This document shows positions 44,201-55,568 of a DNA stretch of 64,000 nucleotides, one piece after another (position 1 is the first letter of the stretch; each line of letters starts with the position of its first letter). Position numbers and translations under genes: made by a program. Source of the DNA: a bacterium (GTDB lineage: Bacteria; Desulfobacterota; Desulfocorpusculales; Desulfocorpusculum); contig JBBFLE010000015.1 in NCBI GenBank assembly GCA_037481695.1, positions 23,174 to 87,173 on the forward strand, read 5' to 3'. The notes under the pieces are model-generated. The model was not told the origin of the DNA, did no database searches, and saw only the letters and a program-made list of their open reading frames with translations.

Positions 44201-46030
44201 CTATGACTGCGGGCCTTGAAGAATGGTGGGTATCAGGCAGGTAAAGGTAGTCCCCTGCCCTTGCCTGCTCATCACCTGGATGGATCCCCGCATGCGGTTC
44301 AAGGCCTCTTTGGCAATGACGAGCCCAAGGCCCGTTCCATGCTCTTCCAGGGCCTTGGCGTTGGAAGCCCTGAAGAATTCTGTGAAAAGCTGTGGCAGTT
44401 CCTCCTTGGGAATGCCTATGCCGGTGTCAGATACCTCCAGCTTGAGCCATGCCCTTCCCTGCCTGGCAAGGCTGATCTTCACCACACCCCCTGAAGGAGT
44501 ATATTTGATGGCGTTGGAGATGAGATTGCTCAGAAGCTCATCCACCAATCCCTCCTCGGCCAGCACATCTGGGATGGGTTCTCTGATGTCCACCTCCAGC
44601 GAAATCTTTTTTCTCCTGGCCTGTTCTGCGTAAAGAGATGAAACCTGCCTTACGCTCTCCCCCAGGTTCGTGGGTTTTAGGGTCTTGTAAGAGGTCTCGG
44701 ACCTTCTTTGCCCGAGCAGCAGGAGATCCTCTATGAGTTCTCCCATGACACGAAGTCTGCTCTGGCAGCGCAACAGTGCCTCTTGCTGTTTCTGGTTTAA
44801 TTCCCCCAGGTATCCATCCTGAAGAACCTTTAACATGCTAAGCAGCGCATGCAGAGGAGAGCGAAGCTGATGGGCCGCCTTGTGGAAAAACCAGGTCTTG
44901 GTAAGCTCGCTTCTTAGCCTCTCTATGGCCAGGGCGGTCAGGTCTGTCATGAGGGAGAAAAAGGAGGTGTCCTGCTCTGCGAAATGATAGCTCTCATCGC
45001 TGTAAACGCAAAAGACCCCCAGGATCCTCTTTTCCACCTTCAAGGGCAGGCAGAGCATGGAGACAATGCCTTCCTTCTGGATATCCTCAGGGTACTGGAA
45101 ATAGTCCTTCTCCTTTATGCTGCCTATGGAATAGAAGGCGCCCTCTATGATTCTTTGATTTATGGGGCTCTTGGCCACCTCTATGGCCCCCTTGGAGAGG
45201 TAATCCTGGCTGAGCCCGTAGGTGGAGGCAAATCTTAGGTACTTCTGCTCCTCGTCCAGCAGTTTTATGGAGCAGGCCTTCACCCCCATTATGGTGGCGG
45301 CCAAACGGGTGGCCGAATCCATGAGGCTCTGAAGATCCTTCTCCCCACCCATCTGTTTGACCATCTCGTAAAGGGCCTTGAGCCTTGAACTGGTGGAGTT
45401 CAGCTCTGCCGAGACCCTCAGGAGCTCCCTGCCCTTGAGCCTGAGGGAATGCACCACCTGGGTGATGAGAAAAGCACCTGCCAAGAGTGTGGCTCCCAGG
45501 GCCCCGAGCCTGGCCCAAACAGCCATTTCCCAGCCCAGAAGGGGCCTCAAACGCGCCAGAATTCCTGCCTCCTCCAGCCATATCATGCTGGCCAGAGCCA
45601 CAATCACAGCTCCCGCATAGATGAAACAGCTTGTTCTGGAAAGCAAAATCCCGGCCAGGACAACATGCAAGATTACAAAGACCACAAGGGGACTGCCAGA
45701 GCCTCCTGTGAAGTATAGGATCAAGAACAGGCCCAGCAGATCCAGACAGATCTGCGCATGGGCTACCAAAGCGAAGGCTGCTACCTCCCGGGTGTCTTTT
45801 TGCATCCGTCTTCCCAAGAGGAAAAAGATCATGTTGTAACAAGCAATGCCTCCCAAGACAGCCACCAGGGCATGAAAATCCAAAGCCTCTCCTGCCAGGA
45901 AAGCCATCCAACAGCCCAGCAGCCCCAGGCCCACGGCCGCCCATCTCAGTTGCACGAACCAAAAAACCCTCTCCATGAGTTCCCTGCGAAACAATATCTG
46001 ATCGCGGATGAGCTGGTAGGCCATTGTCAT
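44201..46030 (-). CDS. Sensor histidine kinase with GAF domain
   Basis: The 609-residue protein has about six N-terminal membrane helices (residues 25-200), a short coiled coil, a GAF domain at about 225-370 (SATRLAATIMGVKACSIKLL), an H-box with AAHQLRSPLHALLSML and an HATPase domain (N-box NLISNAIKYTP, DTGIGIP, GTGLGLVIAKEAL). The signal is unknown. The receiver gene 332 bases upstream on the same strand could be its partner. The frame starts ATGACAATG, so the second ATG is equally possible. Confidence 0.88.
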   Translation of the reverse strand: MTMAYQLIRDQILFRRELMERVFWFVQLRWAAVGLGLLGCWMAFLAGEALDFHALVAVLGGIACYNMIFFLLGRRMQKDTREVAAFALVAHAQICLDLLGLFLILYFTGGSGSPLVVFVILHVVLAGILLSRTSCFIYAGAVIVALASMIWLEEAGILARLRPLLGWEMAVWARLGALGATLLAGAFLITQVVHSLRLKGRELLRVSAELNSTSSRLKALYEMVKQMGGEKDLQSLMDSATRLAATIMGVKACSIKLLDEEQKYLRFASTYGLSQDYLSKGAIEVAKSPINQRIIEGAFYSIGSIKEKDYFQYPEDIQKEGIVSMLCLPLKVEKRILGVFCVYSDESYHFAEQDTSFFSLMTDLTALAIERLRSELTKTWFFHKAAHQLRSPLHALLSMLKVLQDGYLGELNQKQQEALLRCQSRLRVMGELIEDLLLLGQRRSETSYKTLKPTNLGESVRQVSSLYAEQARRKKISLEVDIREPIPDVLAEEGLVDELLSNLISNAIKYTPSGGVVKISLARQGRAWLKLEVSDTGIGIPKEELPQLFTEFFRASNAKALEEHGTGLGLVIAKEALNRMRGSIQVMSRQGQGTTFTCLIPTILQGPQS

Positions 46031-46362
46031 GGGTTGGGTGCTCCTGTGTCATGTGCTGGCCCGGGGCCTGCCCCATTGTCCTGGGTCTTCCCGGCTGCCT
46101 TTACGCCTTGATTCCACAGGGCCTCATGCTTGACCCCAACTGGGGCTTTGGAGCTCCATGAATGAAATCCCAGACTGCATGAGATCATTTCAAGAGGCAC
46201 CGTGACCCAGCCCCTGGCTTTGGAGACGGCCTCCAAAGAGTAGCATGAGTACAAAGCCTGTAGAGTTGCCCCAGGCCTTGTGCCTCTAATAGGCATTTCC
46301 ATTGAAGATCGATTCTCTTTTGCCCAAAGACAGATTGCCCGTCAAGGGGCAGCCACAAACCT
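46031..46362. other. Intergenic region between receiver and kinase genes
   Basis: These 332 bases hold a 91-codon minus-strand ORF (46302-46027) whose stop overlaps the kinase ATG, but its residue pattern resembles no protein and it has no ribosome-binding site. I see no promoter or hairpin here. Confidence 0.4.
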
Positions 46363-46776
46363 TCAGAGTTTTCCAGCCTCTTTGAGAAAGGCTTCCACAG
46401 CTGCCAGCAGCTCTTCGGGCTCGATGGGTTTTTCCAAAAGATGGGCCACCGGCCACTCCATGCCCAGAATATGCTGGAAGCTCTCGGGGCCTTGTTCAGC
46501 CATCTTCTGGGGGAATCCTGTGGTCATGATAATGGGGATTGCTGCGAATCGGGCATCCCCCTTGAGACGAGCAGCCAGGTCGAAACCCTCGGTGTCTGTA
46601 TTCATCATAACATCCAGAAGAATCAAGTCAGGCGGTTTTTCCAGGATGCGGCTGTAGCCCTCCTTTCCATCATGTGCGGTGCGCACCTTGAAGCCTCTGC
46701 TCTCCAGGATTATCTTCATGGAAGCCACCAGATCCCTGTCATCGTCTATGATAAGGATATCTCCACCTGGACTCAT
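46363..46776 (-). CDS. Single-domain response regulator
   Basis: The ATG 46776 has AAGGAGG upstream; the frame extends 24 codons further without support. The 137-residue protein is one receiver domain: IIDDDRD acidic pocket, phospho-acceptor Asp in LILLDVMMNTDTEGF, Thr/Ser switch in IIMTTGF and Lys in LLEKPIEPEEL. No output domain is present, so it may act by protein contact like CheY or relay receivers. It lies upstream of the GAF kinase on the same strand. Confidence 0.88.
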   Translation of the reverse strand: MSPGGDILIIDDDRDLVASMKIILESRGFKVRTAHDGKEGYSRILEKPPDLILLDVMMNTDTEGFDLAARLKGDARFAAIPIIMTTGFPQKMAEQGPESFQHILGMEWPVAHLLEKPIEPEELLAAVEAFLKEAGKL

Positions 46777-47120
46777 GAGGACCTCCTTGACCCGAATTAT
46801 TGGCCAGGATGGGTGAGGTCGGGTCAGTGCCCACAAAGCCCATCCCAAAATAAGCCCTTCTCAGCCTCAAGGCACGAGCAGATCCCAAATGCAAGATCAG
46901 GCCTCACTTTGCCATGAATCAGTTCCTCTCAAGATCCCCTAACCTTAGTCCCCACTGTCCCCTTTTCGGGAATTATTTGGGTTAGAAAGGCTCTCATGGC
47001 CTTGGGCCTCTGCCCCAGCAAGGCCCTTGGGCTGACATCAATGGAAAGCAAAAAGCCACTAAGGAAAAAACCACCATATCCTGCACTTATTCTAGATCCC
47101 CTGGAAGACTTGGGCATTTC
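46777..47120. other. Intergenic region after the hydrogenase operon
   Basis: No gene is supported in these 344 bases. One copy of GTCCCCACTGTCCCC lies at 46948-46962, a near-palindromic motif of a kind that can be repetitive in genomes, but only one copy was noticed here. No clear terminator for the hydrogenase operon was found. Confidence 0.4.
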
Positions 47121-47657
47121 TCATTCTCCCTGAAGGAGTTCATTCAGCATGGCCCCAGATACCCCGAGGCCAGAAGCTTTCAATTCCCAAGAAGTTCTGT
47201 CTCTTGGGACAATCCGGCTCAGGAAGGCCTCTATCTCCCTTTGGGCGCGTAAAGCAAGGCAAAGGGTCATGGAACTCATTTCTTGGCCCTGTGCAAAGTT
47301 TTCCCCTCTTATGGACACCAGCCAGGTTTCTGGACATGAACCTCTGGCAAGTCTAAGGAGCCACAGCAGAGTGGCCGGATCCATATGATGGCTGAAGGCT
47401 GAAGGGGTGGGCCTGGGCTCCAGTTTCCTCCATTGCACGCCATGGCAGGTGTCCTCTGCAGAGGCATCCACCAAAATAAGCATGGAGGCGTCCCCCAGAT
47501 TCTCCAGAAGCCCCTCTTCCAGCTGGTGGTAAAGGAAAAAACGCAGCCACGGTTTGGGACCCAGAGAAGACCTCAGACGTTGCACCACCAGGGGCCCCAC
47601 CCCGTCGTCCCCTCTTTGGGTGTTTCCGTATCCAACTATGTGGACCCTGCCCTCCAT
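47121..47657 (-). CDS. [NiFe] hydrogenase maturation protease
   Basis: This endopeptidase removes the C-terminal tail of the [NiFe] large subunit after nickel insertion. The 178 residues begin with the family motif IVGYGNTQRGDDGVGPLVVQ, where the Asp is a nickel-sensing ligand, followed by LILVDAS (second ligand Asp) and SHHMDPATLL (ligand His). It lies 13 bases after the large-subunit gene and is last in the hydrogenase operon. It is slightly longer than HycI/HyaD at its C-terminus. Confidence 0.92.
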   Translation of the reverse strand: MEGRVHIVGYGNTQRGDDGVGPLVVQRLRSSLGPKPWLRFFLYHQLEEGLLENLGDASMLILVDASAEDTCHGVQWRKLEPRPTPSAFSHHMDPATLLWLLRLARGSCPETWLVSIRGENFAQGQEMSSMTLCLALRAQREIEAFLSRIVPRDRTSWELKASGLGVSGAMLNELLQGE

Positions 47658-47670
47658 GGCCTGTTCGCCC

Positions 47671-49107
47671 TCATGAATTCCGCCTCAGTTCCAAGACCCG
47701 GTCTCCCTGGGGGTTTATCAGCTCTATGAGCAAAGGCATCTGGCCCAAGGCATGGGTGGAGCAGGAAAGACAGGGGTCATAGCAACGTATGGCGCCCTCC
47801 ACTCGGTTCAGAATCCCCTCCTTTACAATGCCTCCATGAATGTAAGTGCGGGCCACTGAGGTTATGGCACGGTTCATGGCCAGGTTGTTGTGACCTGTGG
47901 CCACAATGAGATTCACATCTTCAATGACCCCATGGGAATCCACCCTGTAGTGGTGTATGAGGGTGCCTCTGGGCGCCTCCACCACTCCCACCCCCTCTTC
48001 TTGGGCTGGTCTGGGCACTGTGATCCTGACATCCTTGGAGCAAATCACCTCTGTCTGGAGCAACTCTTCTGCCTTTTCCAGAGCGTAGAGAAGCTCCACC
48101 AGCCTGGCGTGATGGTAATACAGGGAACCCTGGGGCAGACCGCAGCCTGCTGAAGCACGAAAAGTCTCAAGAGCTTTCTGTGCTCTGGGGGTGGTAATAC
48201 CGCTGGCTGTGTTGAGCCTGGCCAGAGGCCCCACCCTGTAAGAACCCTCAGGATACCCATCGGGTTTGAAGTAAGGAAACTTCAGGTACGACCACGGCTC
48301 CACCTTTTCTCCTATGTATTCCAGGTAATCCCTTGGGGCAAAACGGGCCTTGGGTTCTCCTGCCGGACCCGAAATCTTGATTTCACCGTCGTATAAAGCC
48401 AGATTGCCATTCTCGTCCACAAGACCCGCATAATTGGAGGGAAAGGATGCGAATCCAACTGCCTCATCCTTGTTTTTCTCCCACCAGTTCTGGAAAATCT
48501 CCATGGCGCAGGAAAAGGCCCTGTACATCTCTGGGAAGCCCTCAAGGAGTTGATCCCTGTCCTGGGGACTCAGGGCATCGCTTACTCCCCCTGGCACGGC
48601 GAATACCGGATGGATCTTCTTGCCCCCCAATCGCCGGATTATCTCCTGCCCGAAGCTCCGCAGGCGGATGCCTTGGATAGCTGCTTCCGGAAACTCCTGG
48701 AGCACCCCCACCACATTTCGCTTGGCTGGGTGCGCATCCCAGCCCAGCAGGAGGTCCGGGCTAGCCAGATAGAAAAAATGAAGAGCATGGGACTGGATGT
48801 ACTGGCCCATGTGGAGCAGCTCCCTCAGGAGAATGGCAGCCCTGGGGATCTCCACGCCCAGAATGGCGTCGCATGCTTTGGCCGATCCCAGCTGGTGGCT
48901 CACCGGGCAGATGCCGCATATGCGCTGGGTTATTGCTCCCATCTCTTCCATGGGCCTGCCCTTGCAGAACCGCTCGTAACCCCTGAACTGGGTCACATGA
49001 AACCTGGCCTCGAGCACCTCTCCTTGCCCGTCCAGGTGAATGGTCACCTTGCCATGACCCTCCAGCCTGGTTACAGGATCTATGGTTATTTTTCTGAGCT
49101 GGGCCAT
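47671..49107 (-). CDS. [NiFe] hydrogenase large subunit (HoxH/HydL type)
   Basis: The large subunit holds the NiFe(CN)2CO centre. The N-terminal L1 motif is RICGICPVSHQLGSAKACD and the C-terminal L2 motif is DPCLSCSTHALGQMPL, giving the four Cys ligands. The protein (478 residues) continues 25 or so residues past the L2 His, a tail for the maturation protease encoded next. The motif variants fit group 3 cytoplasmic hydrogenases (HoxH, HydL), not membrane uptake enzymes. It lies 12 bases after the small-subunit gene. Confidence 0.93.
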   Translation of the reverse strand: MAQLRKITIDPVTRLEGHGKVTIHLDGQGEVLEARFHVTQFRGYERFCKGRPMEEMGAITQRICGICPVSHQLGSAKACDAILGVEIPRAAILLRELLHMGQYIQSHALHFFYLASPDLLLGWDAHPAKRNVVGVLQEFPEAAIQGIRLRSFGQEIIRRLGGKKIHPVFAVPGGVSDALSPQDRDQLLEGFPEMYRAFSCAMEIFQNWWEKNKDEAVGFASFPSNYAGLVDENGNLALYDGEIKISGPAGEPKARFAPRDYLEYIGEKVEPWSYLKFPYFKPDGYPEGSYRVGPLARLNTASGITTPRAQKALETFRASAGCGLPQGSLYYHHARLVELLYALEKAEELLQTEVICSKDVRITVPRPAQEEGVGVVEAPRGTLIHHYRVDSHGVIEDVNLIVATGHNNLAMNRAITSVARTYIHGGIVKEGILNRVEGAIRCYDPCLSCSTHALGQMPLLIELINPQGDRVLELRRNS

Positions 49108-49119
49108 GTCTTGACCTCC

Positions 49120-49662
49120 TCAATCGAAATGGAGCAAGGCCGCAGGCAGGGCCTCTGGCCGCCCCTGGAGGATTCCTTTCAGGCACTGAGCTATGGCCTC
49201 GGGTGAGGGTGGACACCCCGGCACATAGAGATCCACCTGGACCACCTGATTGGCCGGAAGCACCTTGTCCAGGAGCTCCGGAAGATCCGGGTCAGAGGGA
49301 ATCATTCCTCCCACGGTGGAAAGGGTTTCCACATAGCCGTGTCTGAGCACTTCTTGTTTGGGGATCCAGTTGCGCATGGTGTTTATGCCGCCGAACACAG
49401 CGCAGTCCCCCCAGGCCACCAGCAAGCCGCAGCTTTTCCTTAGCTTCTTGAGGATTTCCTCCTGCTCAAGGGTGCCCACCCCACCCTCCACTATACCCAC
49501 AGCCAGCTGCGGGAACTCATATTCCTTGAAATCCGTGATGGGAGACACGGTTAGTTCCACTTCCTGGAGCACCTCCAAGAGCTTCTCATCCAGATCCAGG
49601 AAGGACATGTGACAGCCAGCACATCCCTCCAGCCAGACAGTTGCTATCTTGGGCTTATCCAT
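49120..49662 (-). CDS. [NiFe] hydrogenase small subunit (HoxY/HydS type)
   Basis: The 180-residue protein has the short group 3 form without Tat signal, so the enzyme is cytoplasmic. Cysteines in EGCAGCHMSFLDLDEKLL, WGDCAVFGG and VPGCPPSPEAI provide the proximal [4Fe-4S] cluster that takes electrons from the NiFe centre. It sits between the NuoG-like gene and the large subunit, with a 47-base gap to the former. Confidence 0.93.
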   Translation of the reverse strand: MDKPKIATVWLEGCAGCHMSFLDLDEKLLEVLQEVELTVSPITDFKEYEFPQLAVGIVEGGVGTLEQEEILKKLRKSCGLLVAWGDCAVFGGINTMRNWIPKQEVLRHGYVETLSTVGGMIPSDPDLPELLDKVLPANQVVQVDLYVPGCPPSPEAIAQCLKGILQGRPEALPAALLHFD

Positions 49663-49709: not shown

Positions 49710-51770
49710 TCAGGACAGGTTCATGGCTGCCATCGTTCTTGCTCTGAGGCTCTCCATTGTTGATGGAAGAGCTCTCACGCCGGTTCTGCCAGCCAAAGCC
49801 AAAAGTGTCTCCCAGCTGCGACGAACCCCCGGCGGCGGGCTCAACACCTCAGAAACATGCCCCATTTCATGTCCGTCCAGGGAAAGGTAACTGCCTTCCT
49901 GCTCCAGCCAAAGCGGCCTTGGCAAGATCACATGGGCCTTGTTCAACAGCTCTTCAGGGACATGGGATCCAATAACGCCTAGAAAATCGGCCCTGGGCAC
50001 AACCCCGCCCAAACCATGGTTTTGTCCTCCCCCAAGCAGCAATAGACAAGCCCCTGCCCCGCGGGCCTCACTTTCCTCAGGAATGCCAAGGCAGTTGAGC
50101 CGTAGCGCACAAGCAGGGTTTCCACCAGGTTTCAAAAGAATGAGCCTTAGCCCATTTTGGGGCAGAAGACCCTTTAGAAGGGCCAGGAACATGACATGTT
50201 GCAATGCTGAATATTCCCCTTTCCCACTCAGCTCGGGGCCGGCCACAATCAAGGGATGAAGGGAGTTCATGAAGCCACTGGCAATTTGCTCCACCACCTC
50301 CCTGAGCTGCAGGGGAAGTTCCTTCAGGGAGTCTTTTGATCTGATAGGCTCCACCTCCGAGAGGATCCTCCTCCACCTGGTGATGGGGTTGAAGCTGCCT
50401 GAGCCTTCGAGGGCCCTGGCCAGCAGAAACCTCACGGCCTCGGCAAGCTCATGGGAGGCAATCTCCGCATGTAGGGTTCTGAAAGCAGAGGAAACCCCAG
50501 AACCACCCATGGAGGCCACCCAAGCCCCCCTCTCCATGGACGCTCTTCTGATCATGGAGACCAGAAGAGGATGTGACTCCTCTGGATGGCCCCCCACCAA
50601 CAATATGAAGTCCGCCTCGGACAGATGCACCCAGGAGCATTCCCTGAGTCCCAGGAAGGTTCTCTCCATTTCTTTAAGGGCGCCTTGAATGGGCAAGAGG
50701 GCCTCTCTTTCCAGCAGGCCTGCATGCCCCCCCATCCCCTCTTCCAGCATCTCTTTAAAAAGCCAAATCTCCTCGCAGGAGCAGTCTGCAGAGACCAGAC
50801 CCAGCAACCCGGCTTTTCTTTGCCTTCCTTGCATCATGCCTGCAGCTAGCCTCTCCAAGGCATCCTCCCAGGTGGTGGGATGCAGTTCATGGTCTTTTCC
50901 CCTCACCATGGGCTCAAGTATCCTACCTCCCTTGTTCACCAAAGGCTCGAAACGCCCCTTGCGGCAAAGCTGACCCCTGTCTGGTCTTTGGGTGGAGAGA
51001 AGACCGTCTATGCGCATGAGATTTCCATCCCGAACACTGTATTGGCCCTGGCACAGGAGCCCGCACACAGCACATCTGGTTTGAACCACCCGCACAGGCC
51101 CTCTCTTGCCCAGCACTGCTTGGTGCGGCCTCAGTCTTTGATACATGGCTCCTGTTGGGCAAACCTGGAGGCACACACCCGAGGAATCGCAGCTGGAGTC
51201 CTCCGTGAGATCATTCAAGTCCTTACATATGAGGGTGCGCGCCCCCCTGTTCTGGTAATTGAGCACAGAATTGCCGGCCAGCTCCTTGCAGGCCCTGACA
51301 CACCTCCCGCACAGGATGCAGCGGTTATGGTCCAGGGCCATGTAAGGGTTTGTGGCATCAATTGGGAACTCCTTGAAAGATGGTGGCACGGTCAGGTGGT
51401 CCATACCCAGCTCATAGGCCAGGCTCTGGAGTTCGCAGTCGCCGCTTTGGGCACAGAACATGCAGTAATGGTTGCGCTCTGCAAAAAGGAATTCCAGGAT
51501 GGTTCTTCGGCTCTCCAAGATGCGCTCATTGCTGGTGACGACCTCCATGCCCTCCCTTACAGGCATGACGCAACTGGCCACAAGCCTTGGAGCCTTGTCC
51601 ACCTCCACCACGCATATACGACAGCCTCCCCAGTTGGAAAGGGCGGGGTGATGGCACAGGGTGGGGATCCGGATCCCGTTTTCCCGTGCTGCCTCCAGGA
51701 TAGTCATGTTCTGGGCAACAGTTATCTCCTTATTGTCTATGGTCAATCGCACCGTGGCTTTCTGGTCCAT
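49710..51770 (-). CDS. NuoG/HoxU-like iron-sulfur subunit of hydrogenase (HydA type)
   Basis: The 686-residue electron-transfer subunit has a plant-type [2Fe-2S] domain (C39, C50, C53, C67), a HoxU-type His-Cys [4Fe-4S] site (H101, C103, C106, C112), a ferredoxin pair beginning CILCGRCVRAC (151-161) and a molybdopterin-oxidoreductase-type cluster (C233, C236, C240, C269). In the second ferredoxin motif, C194-DSSGV-C200-LQV-C204-P, the expected second Cys is Ser197. The last 400 residues are a degenerate molybdopterin fold with no visible Mo ligand. It lies 18 bases after the NuoF-like gene. Confidence 0.88.
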   Translation of the reverse strand: MDQKATVRLTIDNKEITVAQNMTILEAARENGIRIPTLCHHPALSNWGGCRICVVEVDKAPRLVASCVMPVREGMEVVTSNERILESRRTILEFLFAERNHYCMFCAQSGDCELQSLAYELGMDHLTVPPSFKEFPIDATNPYMALDHNRCILCGRCVRACKELAGNSVLNYQNRGARTLICKDLNDLTEDSSCDSSGVCLQVCPTGAMYQRLRPHQAVLGKRGPVRVVQTRCAVCGLLCQGQYSVRDGNLMRIDGLLSTQRPDRGQLCRKGRFEPLVNKGGRILEPMVRGKDHELHPTTWEDALERLAAGMMQGRQRKAGLLGLVSADCSCEEIWLFKEMLEEGMGGHAGLLEREALLPIQGALKEMERTFLGLRECSWVHLSEADFILLVGGHPEESHPLLVSMIRRASMERGAWVASMGGSGVSSAFRTLHAEIASHELAEAVRFLLARALEGSGSFNPITRWRRILSEVEPIRSKDSLKELPLQLREVVEQIASGFMNSLHPLIVAGPELSGKGEYSALQHVMFLALLKGLLPQNGLRLILLKPGGNPACALRLNCLGIPEESEARGAGACLLLLGGGQNHGLGGVVPRADFLGVIGSHVPEELLNKAHVILPRPLWLEQEGSYLSLDGHEMGHVSEVLSPPPGVRRSWETLLALAGRTGVRALPSTMESLRARTMAAMNLS

Positions 51771-51788
51771 GGATCCGCCTCCTGCCCA

Positions 51789-54700
51789 TCAGGCAACCTG
51801 GATGTCACAGCGCATGCAGCGGGAAGCCTCCGCCACAATAATCTGTTCGGGAAGCCCCATTTCCACCTCGGTGAAATCCCGGATGCGTCCCACGGGGTCT
51901 TTCTCTGGCATGGCCGCCCTGGGGCCCTGGGGCGTCTCAACCACTTCCATGGGAATCTCTATGTCAAGCTCAAGGGGCTCTGGGAAAGGAGCTTCATTGT
52001 TCTTGCTCCTTATGGCAGAGTCGATTTCCCTCGCGGCTGTTTTGCCGGCTGCTATGGCCTTGATCACGGTGTCTGGCCCACTTACAGCATCCCCACCGGC
52101 AAAAATCATGGACTCGCTCACACGGGTCTTGCTGCCGGCCAGGGTCTGTATGAGACCTCCTCGGCTAACCTTTATCTCCTCCAAATCAGCTGGGAAAGGT
52201 AAGACAGGCACCTGGCCTATGGCCACCAGGACCGAATCCACATCAAGGCTGAACTCCTGTCCCTGCAACGGCACAGGCCTCCTGCGGCCGCTTCCATCGA
52301 AATCCCCCAGGGTCATCTTTTGGCAGATAATTCCCCTGAGCCTGGAGTTCTCCCCCAAGAACTTGATGGGTGCTGCCAAGTAGATTATCTTTACCCCTTC
52401 TTCTTCTGCTGCTCGGATCTCCTCCTCCTGGGCTGGCATGTCCTGGCGAAGCCTTCTGTAAAGGATAGTCACCTGCCCTGCTCCCAAACGCACGGCACAG
52501 CGGGCTGCATCAATGGCAGAGTTACCACCTCCTATGACCGCCACCTTCTCTCCCAGGGCAGGGGGATCCCCAAGGTTTAGCCTTCTGAGGAATTCAACTG
52601 CACCGTAGACGCCCTCCAGTTCCTCCCCCTCCACCCCGAGCTTGGTGCTCCTATGGGCGCCCACGGCCACATAAACAGCCTGGAACTCCCTCTTTAGATC
52701 ATCCCAGGAAACCTCTCTGCCCACCTTGGTGTTGCAACGTAGCTCCACCCCCAGATCCAGGATGGCCTGGATCTCTTTTCTGAGAACCTCCCTGGGAAGG
52801 CGATACGCGGGAATTCCCCAAAGCAGCATTCCCCCTGGCTCAGGAAGTTCCTCGAACACGGTCACAGGATAACCCCTGAGGGCCAGCTCCCTGGCAGCAG
52901 AAAGCCCTGAAGGTCCCGCCCCCACCACGGCTATGCGTTCCTTTCGGATGGGAAACACAGGCTCCTGCTTGGGCATGGGTGCATGATCTGTGATATAGCG
53001 TTTTATGGCCTTTATGTGAACGGGCTCATCCAGAGTGCCCCTGCGACACTTGAGCTCGCATTTGTGGTCGCAGACTCTCCCGCACACGCTGGGGAAGGGA
53101 TTGGAGCTCAGAAGCACTCTGTAAGCTTCCTCCAGACGGCCCAGACGGGCCAGGGTTACATAAGATGGTATGTCCATCTCCACCGGACAGGTGTGAATGC
53201 AGGGGGCTTTGAAAAGAGCCGAGCACACCACGGCAGGGCATCTTTTCTCCCTTATGTGTGCCTCGTACTCGTGGCGGAAATACCTGAGAGTGGAAAGCAC
53301 GGGATTGGGGGCGGTCTGCCCCAGACCGCAAAGGGACGTGTTCTGTATGATGGAAGCCCATCTCTCCAGGGTCTCTATGTCGCCTTCCTTTCCCTTTCCC
53401 TGACATATGCGGGTCAAGATCTCCAACATCTTCTGGGTGCCTACTCTGCAGGGGGTGCACTTTCCACATGACTCGTCCTGGCAGAACTCCATGAAGAACC
53501 TGGCCACATCCACCATGCACTTGTCTTCGTCCATCACGATCATGCCGCCGGAACCCATTATGGCTCCTAGCTGAGTGATGGACTCGTAGTCAACGGGTGC
53601 GTTGAGATGCTGGGCAGGTATACAACCTCCAGAGGGTCCCCCCAACTGAGCAGCCTTGAAACGCTTGCCTTTTCGGATGCCTCCTGTGATGTCATAGATT
53701 ATGTTTCCCAAAGGGGTGCCCATGGGTACTTCCACGAGCCCTACGTTCACTATGTCACCGGTCAGGGCAAAGATCTTGGTCCCCTTGCTCCTGAGAGTAC
53801 CCAAGGAGTTGTACCACTTGGCCCCTTGCAAGATGATCTGGGGGACGCTGGCCAGAGTCTCCACGTTGTTTAACACTGTGGGCTTGCGCCAAAGCCCTTC
53901 CAGGGCAGGGAAAGGAGGTCTGGGTCTGGGCATGCCGCGCTTCCCTTCTATGGAGGTCATGAGAGCCGTCTCCTCTCCGCATACAAAGGCTCCTGCCCCT
54001 CTGTAGATCTCCAGGTCAAAATCAAAGCCAGAACCAAGGATGTCTTTTCCCAGAAGCCCGTATTTTCTGGCCTGGTCTATGGCCAATCCAAGCCTTTTTA
54101 CGGCTAGGGGGTATTCGGCCCTGCAATAGATGTAGCCTTGGTGGGCCCCGATGGCCTTGGCCGCTACTATCATCCCTTCCAGCACAGCATGTGGGTCGGC
54201 CTCCAGAACGCTTCTGTCCATGAAGGCCCCGGGATCTCCCTCGTCAGCATTGCATAGCACATACTTGACACTGGCCCTGGAGCGGGAGGCGAATTCCCAC
54301 TTCATTCCTGTGGGAAAGCCTGCACCGCCTCTGCCTCTCAGACCCGAGTCTTTAATTTCCCTGATTATCTGATCGGGAGTCATCTCCCATAGAGCCTTGC
54401 AGGCCGCCTGGTAGCCCTGCCGCCCTATGTACTCCTCTATGCTCTCTGCTGCTATGAGTCCTCTGTTTCGAAGCACCCTGGGCTCCTGGTGCCCGAAAAA
54501 GGGAATGTCTTTCATGCGATATATGGGTTTACCCGTGGCGGGGTCGTGGTACATCAGTCGCTCCACGGGCCGACCCTTGAGCACGTGCTCATCTATGATT
54601 TCCACAGCGTCTTCGGGCTTCAGGTACTGGTAAAAGATGCCTCCGGGATAAACGGTCATGACAGGACCTTGAGCGCAGAAGCCGTTACATCCTGTCTCTA

Positions 54701-54923
54701 TCACCAGAGCCTTTTCCTGGAGGCCTCTGGCCTCTATCTCCGCCTTGAGCCTGGCCATGACTTCCAGGCTTCTGGTGGCATGGCATCCTGTGCCCCCGCA
54801 AACCAGCAGGTGACAGGGGTACTCGGGCTGCCCCGCAGTGAAATCATGTTTCAACCTGGGGGCGAGAAAAGAGGCCATCTCTTCGCACAGCTGTTTGAGG
54901 CTTTCGGGTGAGAGTCTGCTCAT
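51789..54923 (-). CDS. NuoF/HoxF-like FMN subunit fused to a GltD/NfnB-like FAD module
   Basis: The 1044-residue protein starts at ATG 54923. Modules in order: thioredoxin-like [2Fe-2S] domain (CGGTGC, GCNGFC; about 37-120); NuoF domain with GRGGAGFPTGMKW and YVLCNADEGDPGAFMD for NADH and FMN; SLBB; [4Fe-4S] motif ESCGKCTPCR with a distal Cys near 532; then a GltD-type part with Cys groups CIHTCP and CGRVCDHKCELKC (about 575-626), FAD site VVGAGPSGLSAA, NAD(P)H site VIGGGNSAIDAA with YRRLRQDMPA, and a final AGGDAVSGPDTVIKAIAAGK. RR residues after the second nucleotide site favour NADPH. It ends CMRC. This fusion gives two pyridine-nucleotide sites on one subunit. Confidence 0.9.
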   Translation of the reverse strand: MSRLSPESLKQLCEEMASFLAPRLKHDFTAGQPEYPCHLLVCGGTGCHATRSLEVMARLKAEIEARGLQEKALVIETGCNGFCAQGPVMTVYPGGIFYQYLKPEDAVEIIDEHVLKGRPVERLMYHDPATGKPIYRMKDIPFFGHQEPRVLRNRGLIAAESIEEYIGRQGYQAACKALWEMTPDQIIREIKDSGLRGRGGAGFPTGMKWEFASRSRASVKYVLCNADEGDPGAFMDRSVLEADPHAVLEGMIVAAKAIGAHQGYIYCRAEYPLAVKRLGLAIDQARKYGLLGKDILGSGFDFDLEIYRGAGAFVCGEETALMTSIEGKRGMPRPRPPFPALEGLWRKPTVLNNVETLASVPQIILQGAKWYNSLGTLRSKGTKIFALTGDIVNVGLVEVPMGTPLGNIIYDITGGIRKGKRFKAAQLGGPSGGCIPAQHLNAPVDYESITQLGAIMGSGGMIVMDEDKCMVDVARFFMEFCQDESCGKCTPCRVGTQKMLEILTRICQGKGKEGDIETLERWASIIQNTSLCGLGQTAPNPVLSTLRYFRHEYEAHIREKRCPAVVCSALFKAPCIHTCPVEMDIPSYVTLARLGRLEEAYRVLLSSNPFPSVCGRVCDHKCELKCRRGTLDEPVHIKAIKRYITDHAPMPKQEPVFPIRKERIAVVGAGPSGLSAARELALRGYPVTVFEELPEPGGMLLWGIPAYRLPREVLRKEIQAILDLGVELRCNTKVGREVSWDDLKREFQAVYVAVGAHRSTKLGVEGEELEGVYGAVEFLRRLNLGDPPALGEKVAVIGGGNSAIDAARCAVRLGAGQVTILYRRLRQDMPAQEEEIRAAEEEGVKIIYLAAPIKFLGENSRLRGIICQKMTLGDFDGSGRRRPVPLQGQEFSLDVDSVLVAIGQVPVLPFPADLEEIKVSRGGLIQTLAGSKTRVSESMIFAGGDAVSGPDTVIKAIAAGKTAAREIDSAIRSKNNEAPFPEPLELDIEIPMEVVETPQGPRAAMPEKDPVGRIRDFTEVEMGLPEQIIVAEASRCMRCDIQVA

Positions 54924-54965
54924 GGCCGTTCTTTCTCCTTTTGGCAACAGCCTTCAAGATGGGGC

Positions 54966-55568
54966 TCAATCGTACTGCTGAAGAATCCCCTCCAGGTGTG
55001 CAGGCTTGACCTGGGCAAAGGTCTCATCATCCACCACCATGGCCGGGGCAAGCCCACACGCTCCCAGACATCGCACCGTCTCCAGAGAGAAGCGGCGGTC
55101 AGAGGTGGTCTCTCCGGGATGGACTCCCAGCTTGTTGCACAGTTCAGAAAGGGTGTTTCTGCTGCCCCTGACATAACAGGCAGTGCCCAGGCAGACCCTC
55201 ACCGTGTGCCTGCCCCTGGGCACCATGGTGAAAAAGGAGTAGAAGGTAACCACGCCATAGACCTCGCTCAATGGCAGGCCCAGACCCTCAGCAACCCTCC
55301 TCTGGATGGACTTGGGCAGGTATCCCAGCCTCTCCTGAATTTCTTCAAGCACGGGGATCAGGGAGCCAGGAATACCTTTGTGGCGGGAAATAATGGTGTC
55401 CACGGCCGCAAGTTCTTCTTGATTGAACTCATCCTCCAGCGCTCTCTGAGGTGATTTTTCCTGCTGCACGGGATTACCTCCTTGAGAAGACTTTCTTTGC
55501 AAGACCATGGGCCGCCAGGGACCTTTCTCGGAAAGCCCCGAGATTTCTTTGAGCAACCCTTGTGCCAT
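54966..55568 (-). CDS. NuoE/HoxE-like [2Fe-2S] subunit (HydC type)
   Basis: This thioredoxin-like subunit passes electrons near the FMN of the NuoF-like partner. The [2Fe-2S] ligands lie in VCLGTACYVRG and VRCLGACGLAP; GYLPKSIQRRVAEGLGLP and VYGVVTFYSFF are NuoE signatures. At 200 residues it has about 45 extra N-terminal residues (Gln/Ser/Lys-rich); an ATG at 55508 is an alternative start and neither start has a good ribosome-binding site. It is first in the operon, 42 bases before the NuoF-like gene. Confidence 0.92.
   Translation of the reverse strand: MAQGLLKEISGLSEKGPWRPMVLQRKSSQGGNPVQQEKSPQRALEDEFNQEELAAVDTIISRHKGIPGSLIPVLEEIQERLGYLPKSIQRRVAEGLGLPLSEVYGVVTFYSFFTMVPRGRHTVRVCLGTACYVRGSRNTLSELCNKLGVHPGETTSDRRFSLETVRCLGACGLAPAMVVDDETFAQVKPAHLEGILQQYD

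Follow-up and report, generated by a model that had tools for sequence, protein, structure and literature searches.

Introduction

The closest described relatives of the enzyme reported here are the bifurcating complexes of the Bfu family. HydABCSL of Acetomicrobium mobile, a [NiFe] hydrogenase, bifurcates to NAD and ferredoxin, and the C-terminal domain of its subunit B (chain 7t2r_B) is ferredoxin-like (PMC8880783). The survey that defined the family demanded a ferredoxin domain (IPR017896) with clusters B3 and B4 in BfuB (PMC9304861), and published models of the core make the C-terminal domain of B the exit for low-potential electrons (PMC9304861; PMC10482914; PMC9499530). In the sub-type I [FeFe] BfuABC of Hydrogenedentota, described in 2024, the B3/B4 domain is replaced by DPD_II and a domain binding flavin adenine dinucleotide (FAD) and NAD(P); a second bifurcating FAD was suggested there, and homologs were named in other phyla, Thermodesulfobacteriota included (PMC11406978). 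The word NADPH is absent from the main text of that paper. In the Stn/Nfn-Bfu enzymes (8oh5, 9bov), a Bfu core without hydrogenase has a permuted, Lys-marked, NADPH-binding GltD module on its NuoG-like subunit as a third-substrate port, and B keeps B3 and B4 (PMC10482914).

Here, we describe a locus in a 64,000-nucleotide stretch of the genome of a Desulfocorpusculum bacterium (assembly GCA_037481695.1, contig JBBFLE010000015.1, positions 23,174 to 87,173; hereafter the window). The original prediction was of a [NiFe] hydrogenase operon whose NuoF subunit (B) is fused to a complete GltD/NfnB-like module. The best fit appears to be an enzyme linking H2, NADH and NADPH that would need no ferredoxin, because the module begins exactly where kin of this B carry a ferredoxin tail. 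Bifurcation at the flavin mononucleotide (FMN) core of HydABC-type enzymes is unsettled, and the fusion and its ferredoxin-armed close kin form a natural domain-swap experiment: if the core bifurcates, both tails should work, and if B3 and B4 are needed, the fusion cannot bifurcate.

Subunit B carries a GltD module at the site of the ferredoxin tail

Profile searches confirmed both halves of the fusion. In the longer reading of the open reading frame (1052 amino acids, from TTG 54947), matches with E values of 4e-7 to 3e-47 were obtained for a thioredoxin-like [2Fe-2S] domain (residues 40-120), Nuo51 FMN (198-369), NADH_4Fe-4S (480-564), DPD domain II/Fer4_20 (566-656) and Pyr_redox_2 (671-968). 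The ATG at 54923, with AGGAG upstream, gives 1044 residues, which is also the length of a 99% identical protein (P0001); this form is used for numbering unless stated otherwise. Among 8000 scored relatives, the 120 listed each span the junction region (430-740) to 99-100%; 95 have lengths of 1000-1080 amino acids. Read-through and a chimeric or assembly joint were thus ruled out, since these relatives span the junction and the operon recurs. A complex I remnant or Hox enzyme was ruled out by the A subunit and the tail, and a part of glutamate synthase by the location of the module within the B reading frame. An AlphaFold2 prediction for the fusion family gave a mean predicted local distance difference test score (pLDDT) of 91.4 and a predicted template modelling score (pTM) of 0.88 across 1044 residues in both halves, which implies that, in the model, the B core and the GltD half hold a defined mutual arrangement.

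The HydABCSL-type operon was borne out by comparison with PDB sequences: the best PDB matches of B, A, S and L are each chains of 7t2r, and those of subunit C are 7q4v_C and, slightly lower, 7t2r_C. Residues 43-580 of B (1052 numbering) align without gaps to 4-541 of the 597 residues of 7t2r_B, and the GltD module begins where the last 56 residues of that chain, its ferredoxin domain, begin. In four B proteins of this genome that lack the fusion (L003-L006), 2x[4Fe-4S] tails of 59-83 residues start at the same point. The module itself matches best, in the PDB, to 9bov_A, the A subunit of the Caldicellulosiruptor Nfn-Bfu, in its GltD part. Thus, the window shares with NiFe-Bfu all five subunits, the NiFe motifs, the FMN domain, B1, the hinge/B2 ligands, BfuC with C1 and BfuA with A1-A3, but where that family has a ferredoxin domain (IPR017896) carrying B3 and B4, the window has Fer4_20 and Pyr_redox_2. 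Because the ferredoxin domain that the survey required in BfuB is missing, the enzyme is, judged by its domains, a derivative of the family (NiFe-Bfu, type 3) rather than a member. From its InterPro criteria, we infer that the survey (PMC9304861) would have left out GltD-tailed B proteins.

Conservation was assessed in an alignment (A1) of 86 of 110 representative fusions. The hinge ligands C469, H556, C562 and C567 are kept in 86/86, position 507 is Cys in 44, Thr in 35 and another residue in 7, and B1 plus the hinge are complete in 84/86. These five positions are the B2 ligands named for the family (C438, C476, H525, C531 and C536; PMC9304861) shifted by 31. Only 8 residues separate hinge ligand C567 from the GltD ligand C575. 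In the module, Cys 575, 579, 618, 622 and 626 occur in 86/86 and Cys 1036 and 1039 in 85/86, so the full set of GltD cluster cysteines is found in 85/86; we assume the assignment of each to its cluster from homology to Stn and NfnB. Since the C-terminal RCMRC piece aligns to the N-terminus of NfnB (4ylf_B), the GltD module is, by alignment, circularly permuted, and begins directly at a cluster ligand. The FAD motif of the module is complete, with glycines 668, 670 and 673 in 86/86, and two pyridine-nucleotide sites on one chain are predicted, from the FMN/NADH domain and from the NADP motifs GGG(N) at 798-801 (81-86 of 86) and YRR at 822-824 (82/86). The ferredoxin motif CxxCxxCxxxC is absent from the window protein and from all 86 aligned fusions. 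The N-terminal B5 [2Fe-2S] domain has C42, C47, C79 and C83 in the window protein, and all four in 64/86.

Foldseek and VIA-align matched the model to solved B subunits. The alignment to 9bov_B (527 residues in the entry) ends at residue 571 (524 aligned); for some B chains it runs further (8oh5_B, 37-640, 542 aligned; 9n5v_B, 34-638, 559 aligned), into the first ~65 residues of the module. These alignment ranges, which involve few residues, weakly suggest that the two GltD clusters may occupy the place of B3 and B4. The VIA-align rows barely probe the GltD half, and families missing there carry no meaning.

Comparison with other systems sets the window protein apart. Sub-type I [FeFe] BfuABC shows the same replacement of the B3/B4 domain but has an H-cluster [FeFe] catalytic subunit, whereas the window has [NiFe] subunits S and L, and none of the six operon proteins matched PF02906. 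Stn/Nfn-Bfu has the same permuted, Lys-marked module on another subunit, and the window has it on B; the A subunit of the window contains no GltD domains by profile search. NfnAB likewise has a GltD-type FAD/NADP module with two [4Fe-4S] clusters, but no NfnA partner was seen in the window, Lys replaces Glu at the FAD-proximal cluster, and the N-terminal CxxC piece of NfnB sits at the C-terminus of the window module. The subunits of Hox, which we take to be the group 3d NAD-reducing [NiFe] hydrogenases with a HoxU of ~240 residues and a tail-less HoxF, are akin to those of the window, but Hox B has neither tail. Most Hox-like sets have a U subunit of ~240-270 residues, in contrast to the 686-residue A and GltD-bearing B of the window.

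Tails were exchanged repeatedly on the B core

Next, we consider the evolution of B cores with tails excluded. A quick tree was inferred for 109 cores (82 with GltD, 24 with ferredoxin and 3 with other tails), after exclusion of 11 near-copies, 1 truncated row and 3 B proteins in which no hinge could be recognised. For a careful tree, 33 of the 109 were removed (12 long-branched or partial, 21 near-copies), leaving 76 rows (51 GltD, 23 ferredoxin, 2 other). Tail changes numbered 13 on the quick tree and 11 on the careful tree. On the latter, the GltD state must have changed at least 9 times and the ferredoxin state at least 7 times, given its well-supported branches. Constraining the 51 GltD-tailed cores to one clade cost 862 log-likelihood units (p value of the approximately unbiased test, p-AU, 0.0024), and a single ancient fusion inherited as a clade was rejected for the B cores. 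The GltD modules themselves form nearly one group, with 3 changes on a quick module tree, of which at least 1 is forced. The whole module may therefore have been transferred in one piece; recombination within B may also have occurred.

Close relatives differ in the tail. Within one family, the same set of formate dehydrogenase (FDH), C and B genes has a GltD tail at L082 and a ferredoxin tail at L131 (FDH 77%, C 70% and B 70% identical). At L083, of the same family, B is 79% identical to that of L131 over 612 columns, and the FDH lies on the other strand (47% identical). In the window's own genome, L003, by a two-frame FDH, carries a ferredoxin tail, and its B core shares 71-73% identity with that of the window. 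Because tails change repeatedly on the B tree and an FDH operon occurs with either tail, the tail of B is, by these comparisons, an exchangeable port.

The GTDB scan recovered the same hydrogenase operon at L028:7980-17042 and L029:8007-17123 (S 67-68%, L 65% identical). There an FDH-like alpha subunit (891 and 909 amino acids) is inserted before A, possibly making a joint formate/H2 enzyme.

The GltD flavin and the proposed electron flow

In StnC, the GltD FAD is reported as non-bifurcating, and the proximal cluster is bound by K170, where NfnB has Glu (PMC10482914). Lys occupies this site in 86/86 fusions and in 66/66 of the tree set; Glu occupies it in 4 of 13 other GltD proteins, all four of NfnB size (469-492 amino acids). 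The Arg at the StnC R239/NfnB R201 site (R708) is present in 86/86 and does not discriminate. Since the fusions have the StnC-type Lys and not the Glu of NfnB, their GltD FAD is more likely to act as a gate for NADP(H) than to bifurcate, contrary to the suggestion made for the [FeFe] enzymes (PMC11406978). Any bifurcation would more probably take place at the FMN/Fe-S core.

We propose, with moderate confidence, that the window encodes a HydABCSL-type [NiFe] hydrogenase in which GltD replaces the ferredoxin tail and which would bifurcate electrons from H2 to NAD+ at the FMN and NADP+ at the GltD FAD. Electrons would pass from H2 through the NiFe site, S, the clusters of A and B1 to the FMN, where one pair would leave as NADH. 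The low-potential pair would take a route via C1, the hinge and the two GltD clusters to the FAD, which would act as a two-electron/one-electron gate, and leave as NADPH; the low-potential acceptor would become NADP+ because GltD stands at the low-potential exit of B. Run in reverse, the enzyme would consume NADH and NADPH to produce H2. With E' values of -280 mV for NAD, -380 mV for NADP and -500 mV for ferredoxin (PMC9304861), the lowest H2 pressure computed to drive the reduction at 25 C is 3 Pa when NAD is the sole acceptor, 146 Pa with NAD plus NADP and 15.6 kPa with NAD plus ferredoxin. Physiologically, such an enzyme could use H2 at lower pressure than the NAD plus ferredoxin version. 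A hydrogenase making NADH and NADPH from low-pressure H2 without ferredoxin would bear on syntrophy and sulfate reduction, and could serve as a biocatalyst for cofactor supply.

Several observations weigh against this proposal. NfnB, kin of the GltD module, itself reduces ferredoxin. Motifs (YRR in 82/86) and kinship are the grounds for placing NADP rather than NAD in the GltD module, and some glutamate synthases of the GltD fold use NADH (PMC8097209). The cofactor of the hinge is disputed, [2Fe-2S] in 7t2r and Zn in TmHydABC (PMC9499530), which leaves the path from C1 to GltD unsettled, and B3 and B4, replaced here, have been argued to be necessary for bifurcation (PMC11406978). Residue 197 of subunit A (window 51180-51182) is Ser, whereas the other 17 aligned A subunits, some of them duplicate records (L063/L010 and L065/L012 are apparently the same contigs), have a Cys there that presumably binds A4. 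Tail exchange shows that one site takes both modules, not that electrons flow alike through them, and at L028 and L029 the tail of B is of a third type, namely another NuoF-type cluster domain in addition to that of the core. The hinge His is said to be absent from non-bifurcating homologs (PMC9304861), but in the phylum, 17 of 23 Hox-like B proteins without a tail likewise end in the H-C-C hinge motif. The hinge was therefore abandoned as a marker of bifurcation; by this comparison, the hinge alone proves none.

The same 17 proteins would suit an enzyme without energetic coupling, in which GltD is a plain second outlet and both nucleotides equilibrate with H2, as in an H2:NAD(P) oxidoreductase or a transhydrogenase. 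B lacks both kinds of tail in 23 of 31 large-subunit contexts of the phylum with a B in view, and as 17 of these keep the hinge, the hinge needs no bifurcating arm; moreover, a Syntrophomonas wolfei relative without B3 and B4 did not bifurcate (PMC11406978). We nevertheless regard a plain outlet as less likely, for on the B tree the fusions sit among ferredoxin-tailed cores of bifurcating type and swap tails with them, and a path from H2 to NADP alone would need neither the FMN core nor subunit C.

The kinship to NfnB, whose FAD bifurcates, raises the question of a second bifurcating flavin in the GltD module, with ferredoxin still reduced at the GltD clusters by a four-substrate enzyme of H2, NAD, NADP and ferredoxin. 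The second FAD centre suggested for the [FeFe] enzymes (PMC11406978) and the Arg at the NfnB R201 site in 86/86 are in keeping with it, but StnC, with its non-bifurcating FAD, has the same Arg (PMC10482914), the FAD-proximal ligand is Lys in 86/86, and none of the six operon proteins scanned has an NfnA-like domain; such an enzyme seems improbable. Nor do we expect, except at very low probability, that the function is mainly H2 evolution to dispose of reductant, with NADPH at GltD and NADH at the FMN as joint donors. Bfu reactions are described as reversible (PMC9304861), and this direction is downhill at H2 below about 146 Pa; dsrA above the cut-off and the lack of another [NiFe] large subunit in the genome fit H2 uptake as well. 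The hydrogenase that would split electrons between NAD+ and NADP+ thus remains our preferred reading.

Distribution of the fusion and its catalytic partners

The fusion architecture is not unique to the window. Counted from listed matches, it occurs in at least 93 of 395 genomes of the phylum, a lower bound as at most two candidates per genome were scored, and it was printed in 2024 for [FeFe] enzymes (PMC11406978). For a [NiFe] or FDH enzyme with this fusion, no printed case was found in the passages searched of open-licence PMC text; the [NiFe] and FDH versions of the tail swap, and the reading of the tail as an NADP port, appear to be new. More tentatively than for the window enzyme, we suggest a class of ferredoxin-free bifurcating enzymes in Thermodesulfobacteriota, in which ferredoxin and NADP(H) would have replaced one another in evolution at the low-potential port of the Bfu core. 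Its [NiFe], [FeFe] and FDH versions may split electrons from H2 or formate between NAD+ and NADP+ at roughly hundredfold lower H2 pressure than enzymes with the ferredoxin port.

Sixty fusion loci, some from one genome, were chosen from 118 listed matches extending past residue 660. By BLAST, 7 have S and L, 30 have FDH and 23 have neither. Among 19 fusion loci of the GTDB scan, a few apparently on the same contigs as phylum-sample loci (L063/L010, L065/L012), S and L are within reach of the fusion in 12, and neither is present in 7, contig ends included. Viewed from the large subunit, 58 of 395 genomes matched at E 1e-120, and 35 contexts, the window included, were viewed: B has a GltD tail in 8, a ferredoxin tail in 0 and neither in 23 (of Hox-like make), with no B in view in 4. 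All five contexts at 61% identity or more with a B in view have GltD.

A Pfam run on ten neighbour proteins of fusion loci found [FeFe] hydrogenase domains at L064, L085 and L080, methylene-tetrahydrofolate reductase domains in the two genes after the fusion at L104, NuoG-like or flavin proteins at L098 and L105, and unrelated neighbours at L070 and L086. One of the ten has a Glu_synthase domain: at L119:5594-11024 the fusion is followed by a short NuoG-like protein and this protein. At L105:1599-11254, the fusion adjoins a 1115-residue protein with [2Fe-2S], FAD and 4Fe-4S domains, and S (35%) and L (44%) are distant, which marks it, by sequence, as another hydrogenase design.

Operon layout and host genome

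Minus-strand genes run in the order C, B (NuoF-GltD), A, S, L and protease, followed by a receiver protein and a GAF sensor kinase (Table 1). Of the operon originally placed at 49710..55568, C, B and A lie inside that span; S, L, the protease and the two-component pair (44201-46848) lie outside it. Cluster cysteines of subunit C are 126, 131, 167 and 171, and RICGIC and DPCLSCSTH in L are the two NiFe-binding motifs. No partner ferredoxin gene was seen among open reading frames of at least 80 amino acids (shorter ones were not searched). Homologs of the receiver and kinase lie near the operon in 10 of 12 NiFe-linked fusion loci of the GTDB scan.

Table 1 Genes and domains of the hydrogenase locus in the window
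Feature	Position	Strand	Remarks
Subunit C, NuoE/HydC-like, thioredoxin-like [2Fe-2S]	54966..55568	-	200 aa; PF01257 E 3e-50
Subunit B-GltD fusion	51789..54923	-	1044 aa from ATG 54923; many homologs of similar length
BfuB/NuoF core with FMN/NADH site, B1, hinge/B2 ligands	53205..54923	-	residues 1-573 of 1044
Permuted GltD/NfnB-like module (by alignment)	51789..53204	-	residues 574-1044; two [4Fe-4S] sites, FAD and NADP motifs; replaces ferredoxin tail
Subunit A, NuoG-like electron-transfer subunit	49710..51770	-	686 aa; best PDB match 7t2r_A, E 1.7e-85; cluster Cys
[NiFe] hydrogenase small subunit S	49120..49662	-	best PDB match 7t2r_E, E 6e-63
[NiFe] hydrogenase large subunit L	47671..49107	-	best PDB match 7t2r_D, E 6e-174; RICGIC and DPCLSCSTH
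Hydrogenase maturation protease	47121..47657	-	TIGR00072, 61.1 bits vs cut-off 47.45
Receiver-domain protein, conserved neighbour	46363..46848	-	PF00072
GAF sensor histidine kinase, conserved neighbour	44201..46030	-	

The host genome (G000; 4.10 Mb, 52 contigs, estimated 100% complete) has dsrA above the cut-off, with one in-frame TAG within the match, and one [FeFe]-hydrogenase-like protein; it yielded neither a further [NiFe] large subunit nor an RnfC above the cut-off. The host is likely a sulfate-reducing bacterium. A second fusion in this genome (L122, G000:C2:55585-74665) has FDH and NuoE upstream and homologs of the receiver and kinase downstream; L104, with its two methylene-tetrahydrofolate reductase-domain genes, is a related locus. 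At L082, the FDH, C and fusion genes are followed, on their own strand, by a 276-residue gene and a 469-residue GltD with the NfnB-type Glu, which may be an NfnAB pair adjoining the fusion. In the host genome again, a ferredoxin-tailed B (L143, G000:C10) lies beside an FDH split into frames of 353 and 539 amino acids, possibly at an in-frame selenocysteine codon; similar FDH splits were seen at L066, L069, L073 and L074.

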